From a virus, in the IMG/VR virus record IMGVR_UViG_3300015194_000013, positions 1 to 23,185 of that record: a stretch of 23,185 nucleotides of DNA; one strand, given 5' to 3'. Every line of letters starts with the position of its first letter. Position 1 is the first letter of the stretch. The notes below the pieces were generated by a model that was not told the DNA's origin, made no database searches, and saw only the letters and a list, made by a program, of their open reading frames with translations. A program made the position numbers and the translations under genes. Below are positions 4,872 through 23,185 of the stretch, one piece after another.

Positions 4872-5512
4872 ACGGAACGAGACTTCGGTGGCCCAGGCGG
4901 ACCCGCGGACGCGGGCGACGCGGGGGTGTAGCTGATGGGCAGATGCGACGAGGTCTCGCCACCCGGATCGGAGGGCAAACTCATTTGGGCCTTCTCCTCT
5001 GCCTCGGTGAGGCTGTTGGTGAAGCTGCCCAGCGGGGTCGGCTTCACGGTGCCCGCGCCGGCGCCACCACTCGTCGCCTGCGTGATCTTCGCATACTCAA
5101 TGCAGTCCAGGGTGAGCGTGGCCTTCTGCCCCTCCTTGTCGTGCTTGGGGCCGCGAATCTTCTTCACGTAGATTTTGTTGATGCCCCAGAAGCTGAGGAG
5201 CGGATGCACCACGTCAAACGCGGCCGGGGGCGTGGCCTTTTTCTTTTGCGGAGCGCGTGGCCGTATCAGCTCGCCGAGCTCCTGCATGTCAAACCATTGA
5301 TCGGCGGAGTAGGCGGTGATCTCGATCGTGAATGTCGCGAGTTCGTACCCGTTGAAAGTTAGGTTCGCGCCGCTGCCGTCTTTGGGCGACTTCTCATCGA
5401 GCTTTTGCCCCAGCTCGGGTGTCACCTCGACGAGGCCGCGCACCTTGCGCCCCCCGATGACGATATGGTCGAAGCTGAACGCGTCATCGAGCCAGAAGGG
5501 GACACGCGCCAC
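4868..5512 (-). CDS. Putative tail/baseplate adaptor protein downstream of tape measure
   Basis: The start is GTG at 5512, sharing one base with the TAG of the tape-measure gene. The 214-residue product has a beta-rich first part (FDHIVIGGRKVRGLVEVTPE, LTFNGYELATFTIEITAYS), a short basic loop (RPRAPQKKKATPP), then VHPLLSFWGINKIYVKKIRGPKHDKEGQKATLTLDCIEYAKI. The tail is disordered and rich in Pro/Ser/Gly. In many myophages the gene right after the tape measure encodes a tube-initiator or LysM-type hub adaptor (Mu gp43, T4 gp53), and this fits by place and fold pattern. I see no LysM motif. The pairing of two 214-residue proteins here suggests a split hub. Confidence 0.5.
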   Translation of the reverse strand: MARVPFWLDDAFSFDHIVIGGRKVRGLVEVTPELGQKLDEKSPKDGSGANLTFNGYELATFTIEITAYSADQWFDMQELGELIRPRAPQKKKATPPAAFDVVHPLLSFWGINKIYVKKIRGPKHDKEGQKATLTLDCIEYAKITQATSGGAGAGTVKPTPLGSFTNSLTEAEEKAQMSLPSDPGGETSSHLPISYTPASPASAGPPGPPKSRSV

Positions 5513-7320
5513 TACAGCCCAAGCTCCGCCCGGGCGCTGGCGAATATGCGTGGGAGCTCACGGCGCATGGCCGCGCCGATGTCTTCGGCCACGGACTCTC
5601 CGCCCGACTCGACCTGGATGGTGATGGGGCCGATCTGCGTGGTACCCCCGCGTGAGGTGCTCGCGGCAGAGCCGCGCAGGCCGGCGCCCAGATCGTTTGC
5701 GCTCATGGAGTTGATGGCGGGCATCGCAACATCGAAGTCGGTCATGTTGCGTATCGCCCGGTCCACAAGATGTGCGTTCTCGTCGATGCCGCCTACGAGG
5801 CCCACAGGCAGCATGTTCCCTTGCCGCCACAGCTTGCGCGAGGGCGACCGGATCTCGAGTTCATCGGCTGATGAGCCGTGGATGCTCGCAATGAAGCCGT
5901 GCCACTTGTCGTGAAACCAATCTGTTTTGCTGCTGATACCGGCCCAGAGGCCTTCGACCATGGACCCGCCCTGACTCTGCACGTCCGACGCGCCGAACGA
6001 AGCATTGAACCAATCCTTCGCGGACGGGGTGGCCGCGCCGAGTTCAGACTCCGTCGGGTTGATTTTGATTTTATCACTGACGCGCGTCGCGCCGAGCGCA
6101 GCGTCCACGTCCCCGACAACCCCAATGAGCCTGTCAAGCAGAGCGAGCAGGGATGCCGCGGCCTTTCCAAGCTTCACAAACTGCTCGATCCGTCTGTCCA
6201 TCGCCCCCGGGTCAGCGTCCACCTCGTCCATCAGCGTGCCGAAGTCCTTGGAAAACTGATCGATAAAGCCCTTACCGAATGCTTCGGAGAGCCGAATGAC
6301 GTTTCGGATCAGTTTCTCGATAGAGGTAAGCACATGGTCCCAGTCGACTTTGAGTAAGGCGTCGCCGACGTGCTTGAAAATGTCTTCAAAATCCTTGCGA
6401 AACTTCTTCCCGGTGTCCGAGTCCTCGGAAAGTAGCGTGTTGATTTTTGTCATCACATCGACGAAGGGCTTCACATCGATGCCCTCAAACAGCTGGCTGA
6501 TGCGCGACTGCAGCGTGCTGACCTGCCCGGGCAACGATTCCATGCCCATCTTCTGCGTCGCCTTGCCGAGCGGGTCGCCCTTATCAATCGTGCGCTGAAT
6601 GGTCGAGAGGATGGCGCCGATGCCCTCGTTACTGCTGATGCCGCCAGCGCTCATGAGGCTATGTATCTGCTCTTCGCTCACGCCTCGTTTCGTGGCCAGC
6701 GACTTGATCACCTCGCCCTGATTGAGCATGCCGCCGCTGGTCATGGACATGTGCATGAGCTCCATCTTGGACATGTGTCCCGCGGAGCTGATTCGAGCGA
6801 TATGCTCATGCATCCGGTTCATGGTCTCCTCGCCCTGCGGGCCTGCGCCGGCGGCGGAACCCATATCCGAGAGGGCAGCGAAGATGTTGCTCGACTCCTC
6901 GGCGTTGAAGCCGGTCATGCGAAGCAAGCGCATGTTCTTCATGACCGTATCGGTCTTCCACGGCGTCTTGTCCGCCATGGCATGCACGCTTTTATACGTC
7001 TCTTGCGCCTTGGTCGCCGAGCCCTCCATGAGCTCGAACCCGATCATCATGGACTGCTTGAACGCCGCGGCACCGAGTGCGAACTTGGTAAAGTCCCAGC
7101 CAGATTCGGCCAGGCCCACGACCGCGTTCTTGATCTGCGAGAACACGCTGATGGCGTAAAACGCCGAGCGCGTGGCCTCCCCCATCTGCTTGCTGAAGTT
7201 GTTGGCTCCGCCCGAAGACTTCTTGAGTGCCCCCTCGACCCCGCCGAGCGCGCCGGTGATTTTGCTGGCAGGGCCGCTCATGCCATCGATGAGTTTGAAG
7301 AGCCATTCGAGCGTTTCCAT
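5512..7320 (-). CDS. Tail tape measure protein
   Basis: This 602-residue protein is the longest in the window and lies after sheath, tube and the frameshift chaperone, the standard place of the tape measure that sets tail length and later passes through the tube. The N-terminus (FKLIDGMSGPASKITGALGGVEGALK) is the usual 'i-d-k-x-S-g-p-x-x-k' start of Mu- and P2-type tape measures. The body is mostly helical, with a hydrophobic helix near residues 385-410 (AAASLLALLDRLIGVVGDVDAAL). The C-terminal part carries IRSPSRKLWRQGNMLPVGLVGGI, the common 'SPS-k-x-x-x-x-G-x-x-x-x-G-l-x-x-G' motif. At about 1.5 angstrom per residue, the general rule for tape measures, the tail would be near 90 nm. Mean GC looks lower than in the neighbours. 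Confidence 0.9.
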   Translation of the reverse strand: METLEWLFKLIDGMSGPASKITGALGGVEGALKKSSGGANNFSKQMGEATRSAFYAISVFSQIKNAVVGLAESGWDFTKFALGAAAFKQSMMIGFELMEGSATKAQETYKSVHAMADKTPWKTDTVMKNMRLLRMTGFNAEESSNIFAALSDMGSAAGAGPQGEETMNRMHEHIARISSAGHMSKMELMHMSMTSGGMLNQGEVIKSLATKRGVSEEQIHSLMSAGGISSNEGIGAILSTIQRTIDKGDPLGKATQKMGMESLPGQVSTLQSRISQLFEGIDVKPFVDVMTKINTLLSEDSDTGKKFRKDFEDIFKHVGDALLKVDWDHVLTSIEKLIRNVIRLSEAFGKGFIDQFSKDFGTLMDEVDADPGAMDRRIEQFVKLGKAAASLLALLDRLIGVVGDVDAALGATRVSDKIKINPTESELGAATPSAKDWFNASFGASDVQSQGGSMVEGLWAGISSKTDWFHDKWHGFIASIHGSSADELEIRSPSRKLWRQGNMLPVGLVGGIDENAHLVDRAIRNMTDFDVAMPAINSMSANDLGAGLRGSAASTSRGGTTQIGPITIQVESGGESVAEDIGAAMRRELPRIFASARAELGL

Positions 7321-7323
7321 AGC

Positions 7324-7482
7324 TTATTTCTTGGTCAGAAACGCACGAATCATGGCGTAATTTTCGGCCTGCAGCATGCCGCCAACGAGGGCTTCGCGTG
7401 ACTTCTCACCGCGTTGGAGGGCACGGAGCGCGCGGCCCGCGAGGAAGATATTGCCGCGTGCCGCCTCAAACGCGGTCACCGT
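7324..7482 (-). CDS. -1 frame extension of tail assembly chaperone (GT-like C-terminal part)
   Basis: In the frame one base back from the chaperone gene, an open stretch of 52 codons runs from the slippery site to TAA at 7326-7324, three bases before the tape-measure ATG. It reads TVTAFEAARGNIFLAGRALRAL and continues with QRGEKSREALVGGML, then ends AFLTKK. There is no ATG near its beginning. The only possible independent start is the GTG at 7479, inside a GTGA overlap with the zero-frame stop. By analogy with lambda G/GT, P2 E/E+E' and Mu gp41/42, it should be made mainly as a -1 fusion of 155 residues (103 + 52). The sequence shows the open frame; the fusion is inferred. Confidence 0.75.
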   Translation of the reverse strand, partial: TVTAFEAARGNIFLAGRALRALQRGEKSREALVGGMLQAENYAMIRAFLTKK

Positions 7483-7790
7483 TTTTTTGCTTCCTGCTCC
7501 TGCTCTATCCCGGCCGCGCGGGTGATTTGGCCCACGATGGTGGTGTACGCCATGGGCCTTTTTTTCATGTACGCATCAAGGTCTGCGCCGGCCGGGTAGA
7601 CCACCACATCGCGGACCAAGCGCTTGGCCGCGATGGAGAAGTCTCGCTTCTCCGATGCGCGTGCCATGAATCGATCGGCTTCGGGCTCGGTCGGGCACCT
7701 GAAAAATATCTGCTGCTCTGCAACGACCACTTCCCATACCTCGCCGTGCTCTGCGCGAAGTTTCTCTATTTCGTCTTCCGAAAGCGCCAT
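7476..7790 (-). CDS. Tail assembly chaperone, short (zero-frame) form
   Basis: I chose ATG at 7790 (MALSEDEIEKLRAEHGEVW, 104 residues) because a strong AACAGGGGGA ribosome site precedes it. The longer open frame from 7838 overlaps the tube gene. The gene lies between tube and tape measure, exactly where long-tailed phages encode two-frame chaperones that coat the tape measure during tail assembly and are absent from the virion. The protein is acidic at the N-terminus, with a core VVVAEQQIFFRCPTEPEADRFMARASE and a charged, Gln/Glu-rich end (IEQEQEAKKR) that holds the slippery lysine codons. The long product should add 52 residues by -1 frameshift. Sequence similarity to named chaperones is not recognisable to me, so the call rests on position and the slip site. 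Confidence 0.75.
   Translation of the reverse strand: MALSEDEIEKLRAEHGEVWEVVVAEQQIFFRCPTEPEADRFMARASEKRDFSIAAKRLVRDVVVYPAGADLDAYMKKRPMAYTTIVGQITRAAGIEQEQEAKKR
7482..7488 (-). promoter_or_regulatory. Programmed -1 frameshift slippery site A-AAA-AAA
   Basis: The coding strand has seven adenines split as GCA-AAA-AAA-CGG-TGA in the zero frame, so both slipping codons are AAA and can re-pair one base back. An SD-like AGGAG (7501-7497) lies 8 nt upstream, the kind of spacing that stimulates -1 shifting in E. coli dnaX. A 4-bp GC stem (CCGC, 7-nt loop, GCGG; 7475-7461) starts 6 nt downstream. The zero-frame stop follows after one more codon. All three elements are visible directly; efficiency is unknown. 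Confidence 0.8.
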
Positions 7791-7803: not shown

Positions 7804-8274
7804 TTACAGATACGTGTAGGACGAAGCGTATTGGCCATTCATGCGTATCAGCATGATGTCCAGATCGAACTTGATCATCAACGCATCGTTGCCGCCCTGC
7901 GTGCCCGAAAAGTCCTCACTTACGAGACGGACGCTTTCGAGCGAGTCGGTGTAGATGGGCGTGGTGTCATCGCCGTACTGGACGAGCATGTTGAATTCCT
8001 GCTCCATGTACGGTTTTCCCGCGATGCCCTGCAGCACCCCGATGAGCCAGTAGGCTTCCGCCTTGTACAGGGAGATGGACCCCTCGGGTTTGTTCACCCC
8101 GTAGGTGCGGCTGATGGGGTAGCGGCTTGTACCGTACTGTTTCGCGCCCTCTTGGCCCTGCTTGTAGGAGAGTTCGGCGACGCCAAGCGTGATGTTTCCC
8201 GCAAGCGCGACGGTAATGGCCGCGTAGTCGTAGCGTGCGCCACGAATCATCGGATAGGGAGGAAGTGCGGGCAT
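7804..8274 (-). CDS. Tail tube protein
   Basis: This 156-residue protein starts directly after the TAA of the sheath gene and is followed by the chaperone, the invariant sheath-tube-chaperone-tape order of contractile tails. The sequence has beta-strand character (ARYDYAAITVALAGNITLGVAELSYKQGQEG) and a Y-K-x-x-Q motif of the sort seen in tube proteins. Later parts read SRTYGVNKPEGSISLYKAEAYWLIGVL and end with DALMIKFDLDIMLI. Tube proteins stack as hexamers inside the sheath to form the DNA channel. The length matches the family (about 110-170 residues). Confidence 0.75.
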   Translation of the reverse strand: MPALPPYPMIRGARYDYAAITVALAGNITLGVAELSYKQGQEGAKQYGTSRYPISRTYGVNKPEGSISLYKAEAYWLIGVLQGIAGKPYMEQEFNMLVQYGDDTTPIYTDSLESVRLVSEDFSGTQGGNDALMIKFDLDIMLIRMNGQYASSYTYL

Positions 8275-9702
8275 TTAGGCAGCCCTCACGTCGTAGGCGG
8301 GATTGGTGTAGCCAACCTCCAGGTCGATTTCCTTCAGGTAGCCGCGCGACAGGATGCGTAGCTTTGCTCGCAATCGCCGCGTGCTCAGGATTGGGTCGGT
8401 GCGGGTGACGATGCAGGTTGCATCGGTGACGCTGCTGCCGAGCCCCGCACGCATGTCCGCGCGTACGTCATCGTCGATAATGCGCGCCTGCTTCTCCTGA
8501 ATAAACCCGGTGCTTGGGCTTACCAGCACCGAGCCGTTGAGCCAGCTGAGCAGGGTCTGATACGCGATGGCTTTAGCCCTGTTCTCGATTCGCACGAACT
8601 GCGCGAGGCTGAAGTCCGAGCCAGTCACGGCCATCGTGTTCGCGTTGGTGACGTAGAATCCTTGCCGGCCCACGATGGTGCGCAGCGTGGCGAAGCGCTG
8701 TGAGTCGAGCGATAGCAGCTTGCGCTCATCGCCATAGAGCCCGACGATCTTGGGGGTGAGCGGACCCCGGTCCACCTCGCCAAAATCCTCCCCGATCGGT
8801 ATCTGTGCCCATCGGTACGCCAAAGCGTATGCGGAGGAACGCTTGAATACCCGCTCGGGACGCAGCGATGAGCGCACCGCGATGTAGCGTGCAGCCGGGA
8901 TGACGTTGTATGCGGCGAGGCTTGCGAATGCGGTTGGAAGCGCGCTGTCCGCGACATCCGGCATCTCGACGATGGCGGCCACGTAGCGGCTCTGCAGCTC
9001 GGCAGACGAGAGCAGGCTGCTCACGGCGGCAGCGAGGGCAGCGGATGCCGTTGCCTTCGCCGAGTCTGACCCGCTCGTCGGAGCGCCCACGACGTAGACG
9101 CATGACCAGTCGTGCACGTCGAGCAGGAGCGCACTGACCGCGGTGGAGATGTCCCCGAGCGAGGCGCCGGGGGGCGTGGTCGCGAGGCTGTACACCTCGC
9201 CCGCGACGAAGCTTCCGACCGAGGCGAAGGCGATGCTGACGCCCGTGTCGCCGACCAGGTATGCCGCGCCGCTCGCGGGGGTGACGTACTCCCCGCTCCA
9301 GGAGATGCCCCCGTCGTAGGAGATCTTGAACGTGGCGGTGCCCCCCACCCCGGGCTGCGCGATTTGAAACTGCAGCTGATAGCCGTCTCGGGGCGTGCCG
9401 CTTGGCGTCACCGCGGGACCCGTACCGCTCTGCGTGATGGTCCCGATCGTTGCCGCAACGGTCTGTGCCGCCGGGGCCGCGTAGACGGGTCCACCGGTAA
9501 GTTCGATGACGAAGCCGACCGCCTCGGCCAGGGGGCCGCTGATAAGCGTGGCCTTCACATCGTCGAGCGTGGCGAAGGTGTAGACCTGGTTGACGACCCC
9601 CCCGGTGCTTACACCTGTAAGCGCGATGCTGTTTTCAGGCGATGCGGCCTGCAGACGCAAGCCCCCATCGACCTGCGTGACTTTGACGTCAGGTATGCCC
9701 AT
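8275..9702 (-). CDS. Tail sheath protein (DUF2586-like)
   Basis: This 475-residue protein has the size and layout of a contractile sheath, whose subunits surround the tube and shorten on infection. The start (MGIPDVKVTQVDGGLRL) and ENSIALTGVSTGG are typical of the short sheath type I associate with DUF2586. An inserted beta domain lies around residues 95-175 (YQLQFQIAQPGVGGTATFKISYDGGISWSGEYVTP). A Rossmann-like middle follows (DWSCVYVVGAPTSG). The conserved C-terminal domain includes RGPLTPKIVGLYGDERK, GRQGFYVTNANTMA and the end LSRGYLKEIDLEVGY. A run of eight G's lies 5 nt before the ATG as ribosome site. The protruding beta insert is presumably on the outside of the tail. Confidence 0.85.
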   Translation of the reverse strand: MGIPDVKVTQVDGGLRLQAASPENSIALTGVSTGGVVNQVYTFATLDDVKATLISGPLAEAVGFVIELTGGPVYAAPAAQTVAATIGTITQSGTGPAVTPSGTPRDGYQLQFQIAQPGVGGTATFKISYDGGISWSGEYVTPASGAAYLVGDTGVSIAFASVGSFVAGEVYSLATTPPGASLGDISTAVSALLLDVHDWSCVYVVGAPTSGSDSAKATASAALAAAVSSLLSSAELQSRYVAAIVEMPDVADSALPTAFASLAAYNVIPAARYIAVRSSLRPERVFKRSSAYALAYRWAQIPIGEDFGEVDRGPLTPKIVGLYGDERKLLSLDSQRFATLRTIVGRQGFYVTNANTMAVTGSDFSLAQFVRIENRAKAIAYQTLLSWLNGSVLVSPSTGFIQEKQARIIDDDVRADMRAGLGSSVTDATCIVTRTDPILSTRRLRAKLRILSRGYLKEIDLEVGYTNPAYDVRAA

Positions 9703-20325: not shown

Positions 20326-20662
20326 TTAGAGCTCCCGAGACGACATGCAGGTCACCCACGATCTTGATCGCGCCTGCGACATCGCGCATGTGGTCGATGT
20401 CCGCCCCATCGAGCATGACGTGCAACTTGCCGATGGCCTTGCGCAAAAACGCCAAGCGCACCTCGGCCCAATCGGCCTCTTGATGGAGCTTCTTGCGATC
20501 GACAGCTTCCGCCAGCTTCCGATCGGTGCGCACCCGTGCATGGTATCTTTCGAGGGAACGGGGGGAGATTTTCCACTTGGCGCGAGCTGCCGCATCGCCC
20601 AAAGCGATCGAGTCGACCAGGATCTCAGAGATCCGATCGTAGTCAAATACAGGCGCTGCCAT
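20216..20662 (-). CDS. Terminase small subunit
   Basis: This 148-residue protein lies just before the large subunit. The N-terminal part is a helix-turn-helix region (ISEILVDSIALGDAAARAKWKISPRSLERYHARVRTD), the kind that recognises the packaging site. A helical middle follows (AEAVDRKKLHQEADWAEVRLAFLRKAIGKL, then MRDVAGAIKIVGDLHVV), which should form the oligomer ring. The C-terminal tail is Pro/Ala-rich and disordered, and its coding region doubles as the first codons of the large subunit in another frame. It does not look like Mu gp27 (DUF3486). The start at 20662 overlaps the methyltransferase by 20 nt. Confidence 0.8.
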   Translation of the reverse strand: MAAPVFDYDRISEILVDSIALGDAAARAKWKISPRSLERYHARVRTDRKLAEAVDRKKLHQEADWAEVRLAFLRKAIGKLHVMLDGADIDHMRDVAGAIKIVGDLHVVSGALSVEQPRPARASAPATPHGAGPPPPAARVPEPRAPIN

Positions 20663-21311
20663 GGCTCAGCTCTGTCTGCGTGGGAGGCATAGGCTCGATG
20701 CCGAGCAGCGTCGTTTGCCTAAATCTAGAGGCGGCAAGCTCGCAGTAGCCCGCATCGATCTCGAAGCCGATGGCGCGCCTACCCGTGTTGCGTGCGGCGA
20801 GCAGCGTGGTCCCCGAGCCCATGAACGGGTCGAGCACCGTGCCGCCCTTGGGGGCGAAGCCGACCAGCAGCTGCATGAGCTTGAGAGGCTTGCTGCACTT
20901 ATGCCCCGCGGTGCGCAGCTCCGTCATCGTGTCGACGACGTCCCATTTGGGTCCGTCGTGCGATTTCGGCAGGCGCCAGCAATAGATGGGCTGGTAGCGA
21001 TACGCGAGGCCGCGCGATGTCGCATGCGCGAGGGTGAAGCGAGGCGCCCAGACCACGGTCCGCTCGGGTGGGGGGTCGAACGCGCGCACGTCGTCCGCGA
21101 GCCGCGAGCCGCTGCCAAACCACACGACGGGGCCCCTCGATACGCGAAGCATCTCGGGCAGCAGGTGATAGGGCACGTCCGCGTCCCAGGCCGCGACCTG
21201 GACCCCGTAGGGCGGGTCGGTGATGACGGCATCGACGGATGCGTCGGGCATCGCGCGCAAGAGGGCCTCAGCATCCCCCTGCACGATCGATATTCCATCA
21301 ACGTCGTACAC
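20643..21311 (-). CDS. DNA methyltransferase, N6-adenine/N4-cytosine type (orphan)
   Basis: This 222-residue protein has the motifs of beta-class amino-methyltransferases: catalytic DPPYG at 32-36 (motif IV), and HKCSKPLKLMQLLVGF at 137-152 leading into DPFMGSGTT at 161-169 (motif I, SAM binding) followed by AIGFEID (motif II). Whether it modifies A or C cannot be read from DPPY. There is no partner nuclease gene nearby, so it is an orphan enzyme, probably marking phage DNA against host restriction. The target is unknown. The start is GTG at 21311. The segment before it holds a perfect inverted repeat that ends on the G of the start codon. It overlaps the small terminase gene by 20 nt. Confidence 0.9.
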   Translation of the reverse strand: MYDVDGISIVQGDAEALLRAMPDASVDAVITDPPYGVQVAAWDADVPYHLLPEMLRVSRGPVVWFGSGSRLADDVRAFDPPPERTVVWAPRFTLAHATSRGLAYRYQPIYCWRLPKSHDGPKWDVVDTMTELRTAGHKCSKPLKLMQLLVGFAPKGGTVLDPFMGSGTTLLAARNTGRRAIGFEIDAGYCELAASRFRQTTLLGIEPMPPTQTELSHGSACI

Positions 21312-21759: not shown

Positions 21760-22103
21760 AATTTATCCCTATCCCCCATCGCTCGCGCAGCGCAGGTCAT
21801 GGAGACCACGCCCGCGAGCTTATCGAACGTTACCCTCAGCTCAATCGGCAATGTCTTGCCCGTATGATGCCTCGCAAAGATAACTTGTCTATGTATGCCG
21901 CGTAAATCTCCCAGCGTCGCCGTGATGATCCCGTGCCGATGCGCGGCATCGAGCCGGCGGTCGGTCATCGGGTCGCTGCGCTGCCCGCCATCGACGGGGG
22001 ACAGGGCACGGTCCGCGAGCGGTCCCCAGGAGCTGGAGAGGCCCATCTCGGCGTCCCCCTGCTCGAAGAACCAGCGCAGCTCGTCCTCGACCCAGGGCAT
22101 CAT
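21585..22103 (-). CDS. Unknown protein upstream of terminase, possible late regulator
   Basis: This 172-residue protein (begins MMPWVEDELRWFFEQGDAEM) is coupled to the preceding gene by ATGA and overlaps the HTH gene at its end. It has two helical segments: RRLDAAHRHGIITATLGDLRGIHRQVIFARHH, and later RDKLCRAINQGHRAIITIVTAEARVLVTRAYAAYAGARM. The opening W-x-x-x-E-x-x-GLSSSWGPLA, the helices around ATLGDLRGIHRQVIFA, and the basic end would suit a protein of the late-activator or sigma-like kind that often lies just before terminase genes. I do not recognise a named family and no DNA-binding fold is evident. The role is inference from place. Confidence 0.6.
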   Translation of the reverse strand: MMPWVEDELRWFFEQGDAEMGLSSSWGPLADRALSPVDGGQRSDPMTDRRLDAAHRHGIITATLGDLRGIHRQVIFARHHTGKTLPIELRVTFDKLAGVVSMTCAARAMGDRDKLCRAINQGHRAIITIVTAEARVLVTRAYAAYAGARMLMEKEPRYAHFTQRRSWQNSRA

Positions 22104-22612
22104 GGCGAGGCTTCGGGCTGCGCAGGGGGCGGCCGGTCGGTGTCTGACGCGTCCTCCGGATCAGGGACCATGTCGTGGGGCGCGGTCACGTCCTCCTCCG
22201 CCTCAGCCTCGACCTCCTCCCGGGCGACCTGGCACAGCTGCGCGCACAGCTGCATGTGACGCGCTTCGATCTGTCGGATCGACATCCCAGGTGTTATCCG
22301 GCCCAGGGGCTTGCCGATCTGCCTCGCGACTTTGGTCAGCTCTTTGATCTGCTCGGGGGCCACTTCGGGCGGCGCGGTCGTGTTGCGCGGCATGACAATG
22401 GATTCGTAGACCTTCGCAAGCCAAGGGGCGAGGGCCTCGATCGGGCCCAACTTGCGTTCGCGACGCGTAATTTCATTCAGACATGCTTGGAGCCGCTCGA
22501 CCGGATCCGGCCTCTCCATGGCCAGCAGCTTATGAGACAGGCTGATTTGTGTTTTCTCGGGCAACGCAGCGATGCGCGGATGTGAGGTCAACACCTTGAA
22601 AAAGCTTGCCAT
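22100..22612 (-). CDS. Paralogue of upstream partial protein; possible replication factor
   Basis: This 170-residue protein starts two bases after the TAG of the upstream gene (TAGCGATG). Its residues 11-75 align with the upstream protein: HPRIAALPEKTQISLSHKLL then AMERPDPVERLQACL, against HARTSSVHFRTREKLVTDLL then RLQKPDPVHRLHTVL. A shared W-x-x-K-Y segment follows (APWLAKVYES against TGWVLKTYTN). So the two genes are tandem duplicates. The remainder is helical (PEQIKELTKVARQIGKPLG) and ends in an acidic, Pro-rich tail (EEVEAEAEEDVTAPHDMV). The N-P-x-G-W-L type motif in the relative resembles phage and plasmid replication or helicase-loading proteins, which is a hint only. Confidence 0.6.
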   Translation of the reverse strand: MASFFKVLTSHPRIAALPEKTQISLSHKLLAMERPDPVERLQACLNEITRRERKLGPIEALAPWLAKVYESIVMPRNTTAPPEVAPEQIKELTKVARQIGKPLGRITPGMSIRQIEARHMQLCAQLCQVAREEVEAEAEEDVTAPHDMVPDPEDASDTDRPPPAQPEASP

Positions 22613-22614
22613 CG

Positions 22615-23185
22615 CTAGGACGCTCCTAACCGCCCGCTGCGGGGGTACTTTTGGCGAAGGATGCGACCGAGCTGGGCCGCGAGCTCCCTACGGTCGTCCG
22701 CAGAGAGCTCCGGTTCGCGCTTTGGCTCCGGCTCCGTCGCGCGCGACTGGGACGGCAACTTCACCAACGAGTCGTTCAGGTTGGTGTAGGTCTTAAGCAC
22801 CCACCCCGTGGGGGCGTTGACCTTGCCCTGGGTCCGGTCGGCCATTCGATTGTCCAGGTTGGCCAGCACGGTGTGCAGCCGGTGGACTGGGTCCGGCTTC
22901 TGCAGGCGGAGCAGGTCGGTCACGAGCTTTTCGCGCGTTCTAAAATGTACCGATGAGGTACGCGCATGGGCAGCGAGGGCCGCGCTCATCTCCTCTCGCC
23001 CTAATTGCCATTCTGCGGGCTCTTCTCGCTCTTCTACGACCTTGGATGCCTGCTCGGCCTGAACGGCGCTGCTAGGGACCTCTGAGCGGGCTGTGGCTTG
23101 CTCTGGGGGCTGTCGTGGCTGTGGGAAAGGAAGTTTAAATCTCCTCTCTTGCTCTCTCGCGCTCTCGTCCGGCTGTGGCTGTTGG
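22615..23185 (-). CDS. Replication-like protein, N-terminus beyond right edge (partial)
   Basis: The frame ending with TAG at 22615 stays open through the first in-window ATG (22989) up to the right edge, adding 65 codons (ends PAEWQLGREE before the ATG). That ATG has AGGAG too close to act, so the gene very likely starts outside the window. The extra part is Gln/Pro/Glu-rich (QQPQPDESAREQERR), i.e. a flexible linker. The folded part follows (SVHFRTREKLVTDLLRLQKP, DPVHRLHTVLANLDNRMADR) with KVNAPTGWVLKTY, like the 'NPaGWL-x-x-a' end of DnaD/helicase-loader-type replication proteins. The C-terminus (LSADDRRELAAQLGRILRQKYP) is helical. The next gene is its paralogue. Function is tentative. Confidence 0.65.
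   Translation of the reverse strand, partial: QQPQPDESAREQERRFKLPFPQPRQPPEQATARSEVPSSAVQAEQASKVVEEREEPAEWQLGREEMSAALAAHARTSSVHFRTREKLVTDLLRLQKPDPVHRLHTVLANLDNRMADRTQGKVNAPTGWVLKTYTNLNDSLVKLPSQSRATEPEPKREPELSADDRRELAAQLGRILRQKYPRSGRLGAS

Follow-up and report, generated by a model that had tools for sequence, protein, structure and literature searches.

The tail assembly chaperone gene of an uncultured Mu-like contractile-tailed phage carries what is, with high probability, a programmed -1 ribosomal frameshift. The phage is represented by an IMG/VR virus record of 23,185 bp, referred to below as the window (the whole stretch of DNA that was analyzed). The gene has the anatomy of a frameshifted chaperone gene, with a slip-prone site that is kept among relatives, a shifted frame that encodes a conserved domain and a 0-frame product with a chaperone-like fold.

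According to the mechanism that we propose, most ribosomes would terminate at the TGA codon at 7476-7478 and release a chaperone of 104 aa. In a minority of ribosomes, tRNA-Lys on both AAA codons of the heptamer A AAA AAA would re-pair one base back and thereby bypass the stop. The slipped ribosomes would append a 52-residue three-helix extension, giving a product of 155 aa. The two chaperone products of lambda, gpG and gpGT, have known roles (PMC5009743). By analogy with them, the tape measure protein would be coated by copies of the short form, a few copies of the long form would recruit tail tube subunits, and the ratio of short to long form would matter for tail assembly. The slippage itself, its rate and the roles of both products are our inference.

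Genomic context of the chaperone gene

Pfam searches revealed Mu-type head genes in the window (Portal_Mu, E = 2e-57; Phage_Mu_F, E = 1e-19). The tail is contractile, and its sheath, tube, chaperone and tape measure are all encoded on the minus strand. According to the PHROGs and Pfam assignments, the chaperone gene sits between the genes for the tail tube and the tape measure:

8275-9702, minus strand: tail sheath, 475 aa (PHROG 907 tail sheath, E = 1e-26; Pfam DUF2586, E = 3e-33)
7804-8274, minus strand: tail tube, 156 aa (PHROG 4579 tail protein, E = 5e-13)
7476-7790, minus strand: tail assembly chaperone, 0-frame product (gpG-like), 104 aa, ATG at 7790-7788 and TGA at 7478-7476
5512-7320, minus strand: tape measure protein, 602 aa (PHROG 1686, E = 1e-11; Pfam TMP_3, E = 1e-7, below the cut-off)

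Elsewhere in the window, a DNA methylase gene (N6_N4_Mtase, E = 7e-21; 20643-21311, minus strand) adjoins the terminase genes. Two neighbouring ORFs on the minus strand (22100-22612 and 22615-23184) share similar stretches, RPDPVERLQACL and KPDPVHRLHTVL, and are possibly tandem paralogues.

Anatomy of the gene and its shifted frame

Read on the minus strand, the chaperone gene ends with GAG CAG GAA GCA AAA AAA CGG TGA, and its run of seven A residues (7482-7488) lies in the A|AAA|AAA phase of the 0 frame. The elements at the end of the gene are the following:

7482-7488, minus strand: slippery heptamer, A AAA AAA with C as the next base; many relatives have a heptamer of the A AAA AAN type in the same position class
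7327-7482, minus strand: -1 frame extension (T-like domain), 52 codons, with base 7482 re-read; TAA at 7324-7326
7327-7575, minus strand: -1 frame open from stop to stop, of which about 100 nt overlap the chaperone
7476-7479, minus strand: start/stop overlap GTGA; the GTG (7477-7479), in the -1 frame, overlaps the TGA, and a separate product would be 51 aa

Past the slip, the -1 frame reads TVTAFEAARG...LTKK. None of its 52 codons is ATG, fusion to the chaperone would give 155 aa, and the stop of the extension ends 3 nt ahead of the start of the tape measure (ATG, 7320). A -2 shift of the Mu type does not apply to the window, where the +1 frame meets a stop 2 codons past that of the chaperone and the extension occupies the -1 frame. 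An earlier note on this DNA, made from the sequence alone, had described a slip-phase A-AAA-AAA at the gene end, an open -1 frame of 52 codons lacking ATG, and products of 104 and 155 residues; its coordinates and numbers were all right. When the codons of the gene were shuffled, its last 57 nt contained a canonical heptamer in phase in 1.1% of cases.

The chaperone gene contains a second A7 run, at 7559-7565 (ATG AAA AAA AGG), which is out of the -1 slip phase. A near-perfect palindrome (CGCGGACCAAGCGCTTGGCCGCG and its flanks), seen as a self-match on the opposite strand, lies within the chaperone coding sequence at 7607-7635.

Identification of relatives

Neither blastn of the window against phages nor single-protein scans of viral contigs with the sheath and the chaperone as queries detected relatives. 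With tblastn, distant relatives were found in phages of Meiothermus, Thermus, Myxococcus, Flavobacterium and Faecalibacterium. A scan with a sheath alignment yielded 80 viral loci, and a second alignment yielded 63 loci, on contigs partly shared with the first scan. For the genome scan, the diversity of the mixed sheath alignment (A1) was too great, and another alignment (A4) gave two genome loci only. Two Deinococcus plasmid prophages (L009 and L010) were retrieved by portal similarity and stand outside the chaperone analysis.

The loci were analyzed as two sets. The first consists of 44 loci, the window included, for which the chaperone ends were chosen by eye from ORF lists; one locus (L027) was left out, as its chaperone could not be assigned. 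The second set, made up of loci new to the analysis, was processed by a script with a chaperone HMM and contains 43 non-redundant loci, one of which is of the +1 kind described below (L092, Meiothermus). Throughout the first set, the chaperone ORF lies between the tube and the tape measure, and the extension is in a different frame. Among the loci read, we found none with chaperone and extension fused in one frame.

The two protein parts

We compared the extension with those of the relatives using profile HMMs. An HMM of 18 -1 extensions, from which the window was left out, placed the open stretch at 7327-7575 at the top of 479 six-frame ORFs of the window (E = 3e-14; next, 0.22). An HMM built from 13 +1-frame extensions alone also retrieved the -1 frame of the window (E = 1e-7; next, 0.43). 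On the evidence of these profiles, the -1 frame extension is a conserved protein domain. AlphaFold2, run with an alignment of 15 sequences, modeled it as a three-helix domain with a pLDDT of 96.8. Searched against BFVD, this model had a single notable match, a 49-residue protein (A0A3G8F293, E = 0.03, 38% identity), and the extension alone matched no family in PHROGs or Pfam.

The 0-frame product is retrieved by an HMM of the relatives' chaperones (E = 9e-26) and has a match to PHROG 20303 'minor tail protein' (E = 1e-3). In searches of the PDB, phmmer with the single chaperone found no match, and the chaperone profile matched 3FGX with E = 5e-9. The same structure was returned by Foldseek for the chaperone model (pLDDT 84.8), with E = 9e-5 and TM scores of 0.75/0.81; matches of the model to the HK97 chaperone 2OB9 (E = 0.28) and to YqbN 3KLU (E = 0.49) are too weak to be used alone. 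Although 3FGX was deposited as uncharacterised, both 3FGX and 3KLU have been grouped by structure with the HK97 chaperone gp13, as sharing its fold (PMC9603447). Given these matches and the gene position, 'tail assembly chaperone' is a good name for the 0-frame protein.

Conservation of the slip site

In the first set, 25 of 30 non-redundant -1 loci (window included) carry an in-phase canonical heptamer that lies both in the final 60 nt of the gene and inside the open part of the -1 frame; the rest of these genes has 0.019 heptamers per 60 nt. The first-set -1 loci without one are L029, L042, L049, L066 and L080. The second set gave 33 of 42 -1 loci, and no heptamer in about 193 sixty-nt units elsewhere. 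When both sets are pooled and the window is excluded, 57 of 71 non-redundant -1 loci have a canonical in-phase heptamer within ~60 nt of the end of the chaperone gene. The pooled control is 3 heptamers in about 353 sixty-nt units elsewhere in the genes (about 0.01 per 60 nt). The Fisher p of about 3e-53 for this enrichment is a guide value only, since the loci share ancestry. The other 14 of the 71 loci have no canonical heptamer within ~60 nt, and some of them have a weaker run only, such as A AAA. The earlier note had proposed an alignment of relatives as a check, and the relatives bear out its reading in both respects, the heptamer and the conserved shifted frame.

The identity of the heptamer varies. 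With the window included, the most frequent are A AAA AAA (19), A AAA AAG (6), G GGA AAA (6), A AAA AAC (4), A AAT TTG (4) and T TTT TTA (4), in addition to ten rarer kinds; the types across loci include A AAA AAN, A AAT TTN, G GGA AAN, G GGT TTN and T TTT TTN. Letters that vary while the slip-prone pattern is kept are what selection for tandem tRNA slippage would be predicted to produce. Varied heptamer identity therefore favours tRNA slippage over slippage of the RNA polymerase on A7, by which some mRNAs would gain an A and be translated normally into the fusion. We regard this transcriptional explanation as extremely unlikely. It would suit the homopolymeric run of the window and the 35 of 58 heptamers that have a homopolymer core, and RNA polymerase is known to slip on A9/T9 runs (PMC5009743). 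However, the remaining 23 of the 58 are of mixed composition (G GGA AAN, A AAT TTN, G GGT TTN) and fit tandem slippage of tRNAs but not slippage of the polymerase, and the -1 slip phase, which the heptamers have, would not be required for transcriptional slippage. Moreover, the same gene holds another A7 run in a different phase.

The diversity of heptamers also bears on a base-calling or assembly error in A7 that would split one longer gene, an explanation to which we attach next to no probability. Errors are frequent in homopolymers, and the record is an IMG/VR virus contig. Nevertheless, relatives are split in the same way with different heptamers, and these include the isolated phages MMP7, Mx4, Riverbug, lotta8-1 and Mushu.

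The overlapping GTG at 7476-7479 suggests another way of expressing the shifted frame, namely stop-start coupling, in which ribosomes would end at the TGA and restart at the GTG to make a separate 51-residue domain. Similar overlaps are present at the same place in L016 and L018 (TAATG/TGATG) and in L019 (GTG). However, a start codon is located at the stop in only 4 of 25 loci, whereas it is 8-17 nt past the stop in 6 and there is none nearby in 15. Furthermore, coupling has no need of a heptamer, yet most -1 loci have one, L016, L018 and L019 among them. Coupling thus appears very improbable as the explanation for the window. This family does not follow the pattern that the earlier note had named as contrary to its reading, in which relatives would keep both frames without a heptamer and the second frame would have a clear start with a ribosome site. 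Programmed -1 slippage at the heptamer remains our preferred reading.

As a separate observation, L016 and L018 have both a canonical A AAA AAC and a stop-overlapping ATG in the extension frame; in these two loci, slippage and coupling could both act.

Possible stimulators

Candidate stimulatory elements are located on both sides of the heptamer:

7497-7501, minus strand: SD-like motif (AGGAG) located 8 nt before the heptamer; its match to the anti-SD scores -6.6 kcal/mol
7461-7475, minus strand: CCGC/GCGG stem of 4 bp (arms 7472-7475 and 7461-7464), 6 nt past the heptamer, competing with the 8-bp helix
7408-7476, minus strand: candidate stimulator, 8-bp helix (ACCGCGTT at 7469-7476 with AACGCGGT at 7408-7415), beginning 5 nt past the heptamer

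The AGGAG and the 4-bp stem are thus where the earlier note had put them. Its statement that all three classical signals are present holds in the statistical sense for the heptamer, which stands out; the SD-like motif and the stem are present but ordinary. Of the control positions within this gene, 18% equal or exceed AGGAG in strength. Across relatives, SD-like strength is at best mildly raised and not consistently strong (mean rank 0.35, with 0.5 expected). The 4-bp stem is weak on its own. The 8-bp helix is a better candidate; helices like it occur in 1.9% of dinucleotide shuffles, and the downstream folding energy is not clearly below that of shuffles (z = +0.4 for 55 nt and -0.96 for 83 nt). 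As a group, the relatives have downstream structure above that of control stretches (mean z = -1.55 versus -0.27, p = 2e-4, for 25 loci that are not independent). Rfam returned one match only, on the opposite strand and well below threshold (18.9 bits against a gathering score of 50, E = 0.33).

A likely change of direction in Thermus and Meiothermus phages

In part of the family the homologous extension lies in the +1 frame. This is the case in 13 loci of the first set and in L092 of the second:

L003, L006, L011, L012, L014, L017, L020, L021, L023, L024, L028, L031, L036, L092: +1 loci

The named ones among them come from phages of Thermus and Meiothermus or from a Meiothermus genome. On the sheath tree, the 13 first-set loci form one clade (support 85/92); the tree is midpoint-rooted, and the order of -1 and +1 is not readable from it. 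All 14 loci have a codon-aligned TTT C, located 15, 21 or 51 nt before the stop. In the Meiothermus group, it is part of TTT CGN, that is, of the UUU_CGN motif. UUU_CGN is reported as a +1 site in influenza A PA-X (UCC_UUU_CGU) and also in plant amalgaviruses (PMC3498833, PMC5052127). About 5 nt upstream, 9 of the 13 first-set loci have a strong SD-like GAGGAGG (duplex score below -11 kcal/mol), for which a conserved Glu-Glu-Ala in the protein may account.

We consider it likely that a single family frameshifts by -1 on many heptamers and by +1 at UUU C in the Thermus/Meiothermus clade, the direction having been swapped once with the protein unchanged. T. thermophilus has two lysine tRNAs, one of which is expected to pair tightly with AAG (PMC5009743). 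Perhaps the two lysine tRNAs of Thermus (for AAA and AAG) weakened slippage on A AAA AAG; the lysine tRNA set as driver of the switch is our own suggestion. Our literature search, which reached few subscription journals, found no papers on frameshifting in Thermus or Meiothermus phages.

Implications

The window adds to a known recoding system a well-supported case together with about 70 related loci. The data suggest that selection keeps the ability to slip and the shifted-frame domain, not one particular heptamer. The switch between -1 and +1 is the most interesting part; the Thermus/Meiothermus clade can serve as a natural experiment for the influence of host decoding on frameshifting.

There are also consequences for annotation. 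The earlier note had expected gene callers to leave the second frame blank or to call a false gene, and the relatives provide examples of both: a GTG ORF in Mx4, a TTG ORF in MMP7, no ORF in MMP17 and, in Riverbug, an ORF whose ATG lies within the conserved domain. The public records list the extension as a separate hypothetical gene in L003 (2820-2969), L005 (2824-3012) and L006 (2838-2930), with TTG, GTG and an internal ATG, and lack it in L004. Since several public records give the second part a doubtful start of its own or omit it, annotation of such phages should join both frames.

Comparison with known systems

Frameshifted chaperone genes are widespread in long-tailed phages, the shift being -1, -2 or +1 depending on the phage, and -2 in Mu (PMC5009743, PMC2628397). 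Conservation of a -1 frameshift in the genes for tail assembly chaperones is attributed to Xu, Hendrix and Duda (2004), as cited in PMC5009743 and PMC2628397.

Like gpG/gpGT of lambda, the window has the gene between tube and tape measure, an in-phase heptamer near the gene end, and a short and an extended predicted product. It differs from lambda in belonging to a contractile-tailed Mu-like phage and in having A AAA AAA instead of G GGA AAG, and the likeness is claimed for the arrangement. Some relatives use G GGA AAG, which we take to be lambda's own heptamer.

With Mu, the window shares the Mu-type portal and protein F, the tail gene order and an out-of-frame chaperone extension before the tape measure. 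However, the Mu record has a -1 frame that ends 11 codons past the gp41 stop, and the extension, 42 codons long, is in the +1/-2 frame. The claim that Mu gp41/42 has the same arrangement thus needs correction: the Mu extension is not -1, and the pair consists of gp41 and the extension, gp42 being the tape measure.

As for the chaperone itself, Rbstp2171 (PDB 3FGX) has its fold in common with the model of the window protein, and B. subtilis YqbN (3KLU) is a weak fold match. Among phages, Meiothermus phages MMP7 and MMP17 and Thermus phage Riverbug have a homologous chaperone and extension domain; unlike in the window, their extension is in the +1 frame. The Myxococcus phage Mx4 pair p57/p58 also consists of a homologous chaperone and extension. 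The Mx4 extension is longer (68 codons post-slip) and annotated as a separate GTG gene, and the two chaperones are about 29% identical, yet Mx4 has, like the window, A AAA AAA in the -1 phase (GAA AAA AAA GAC).
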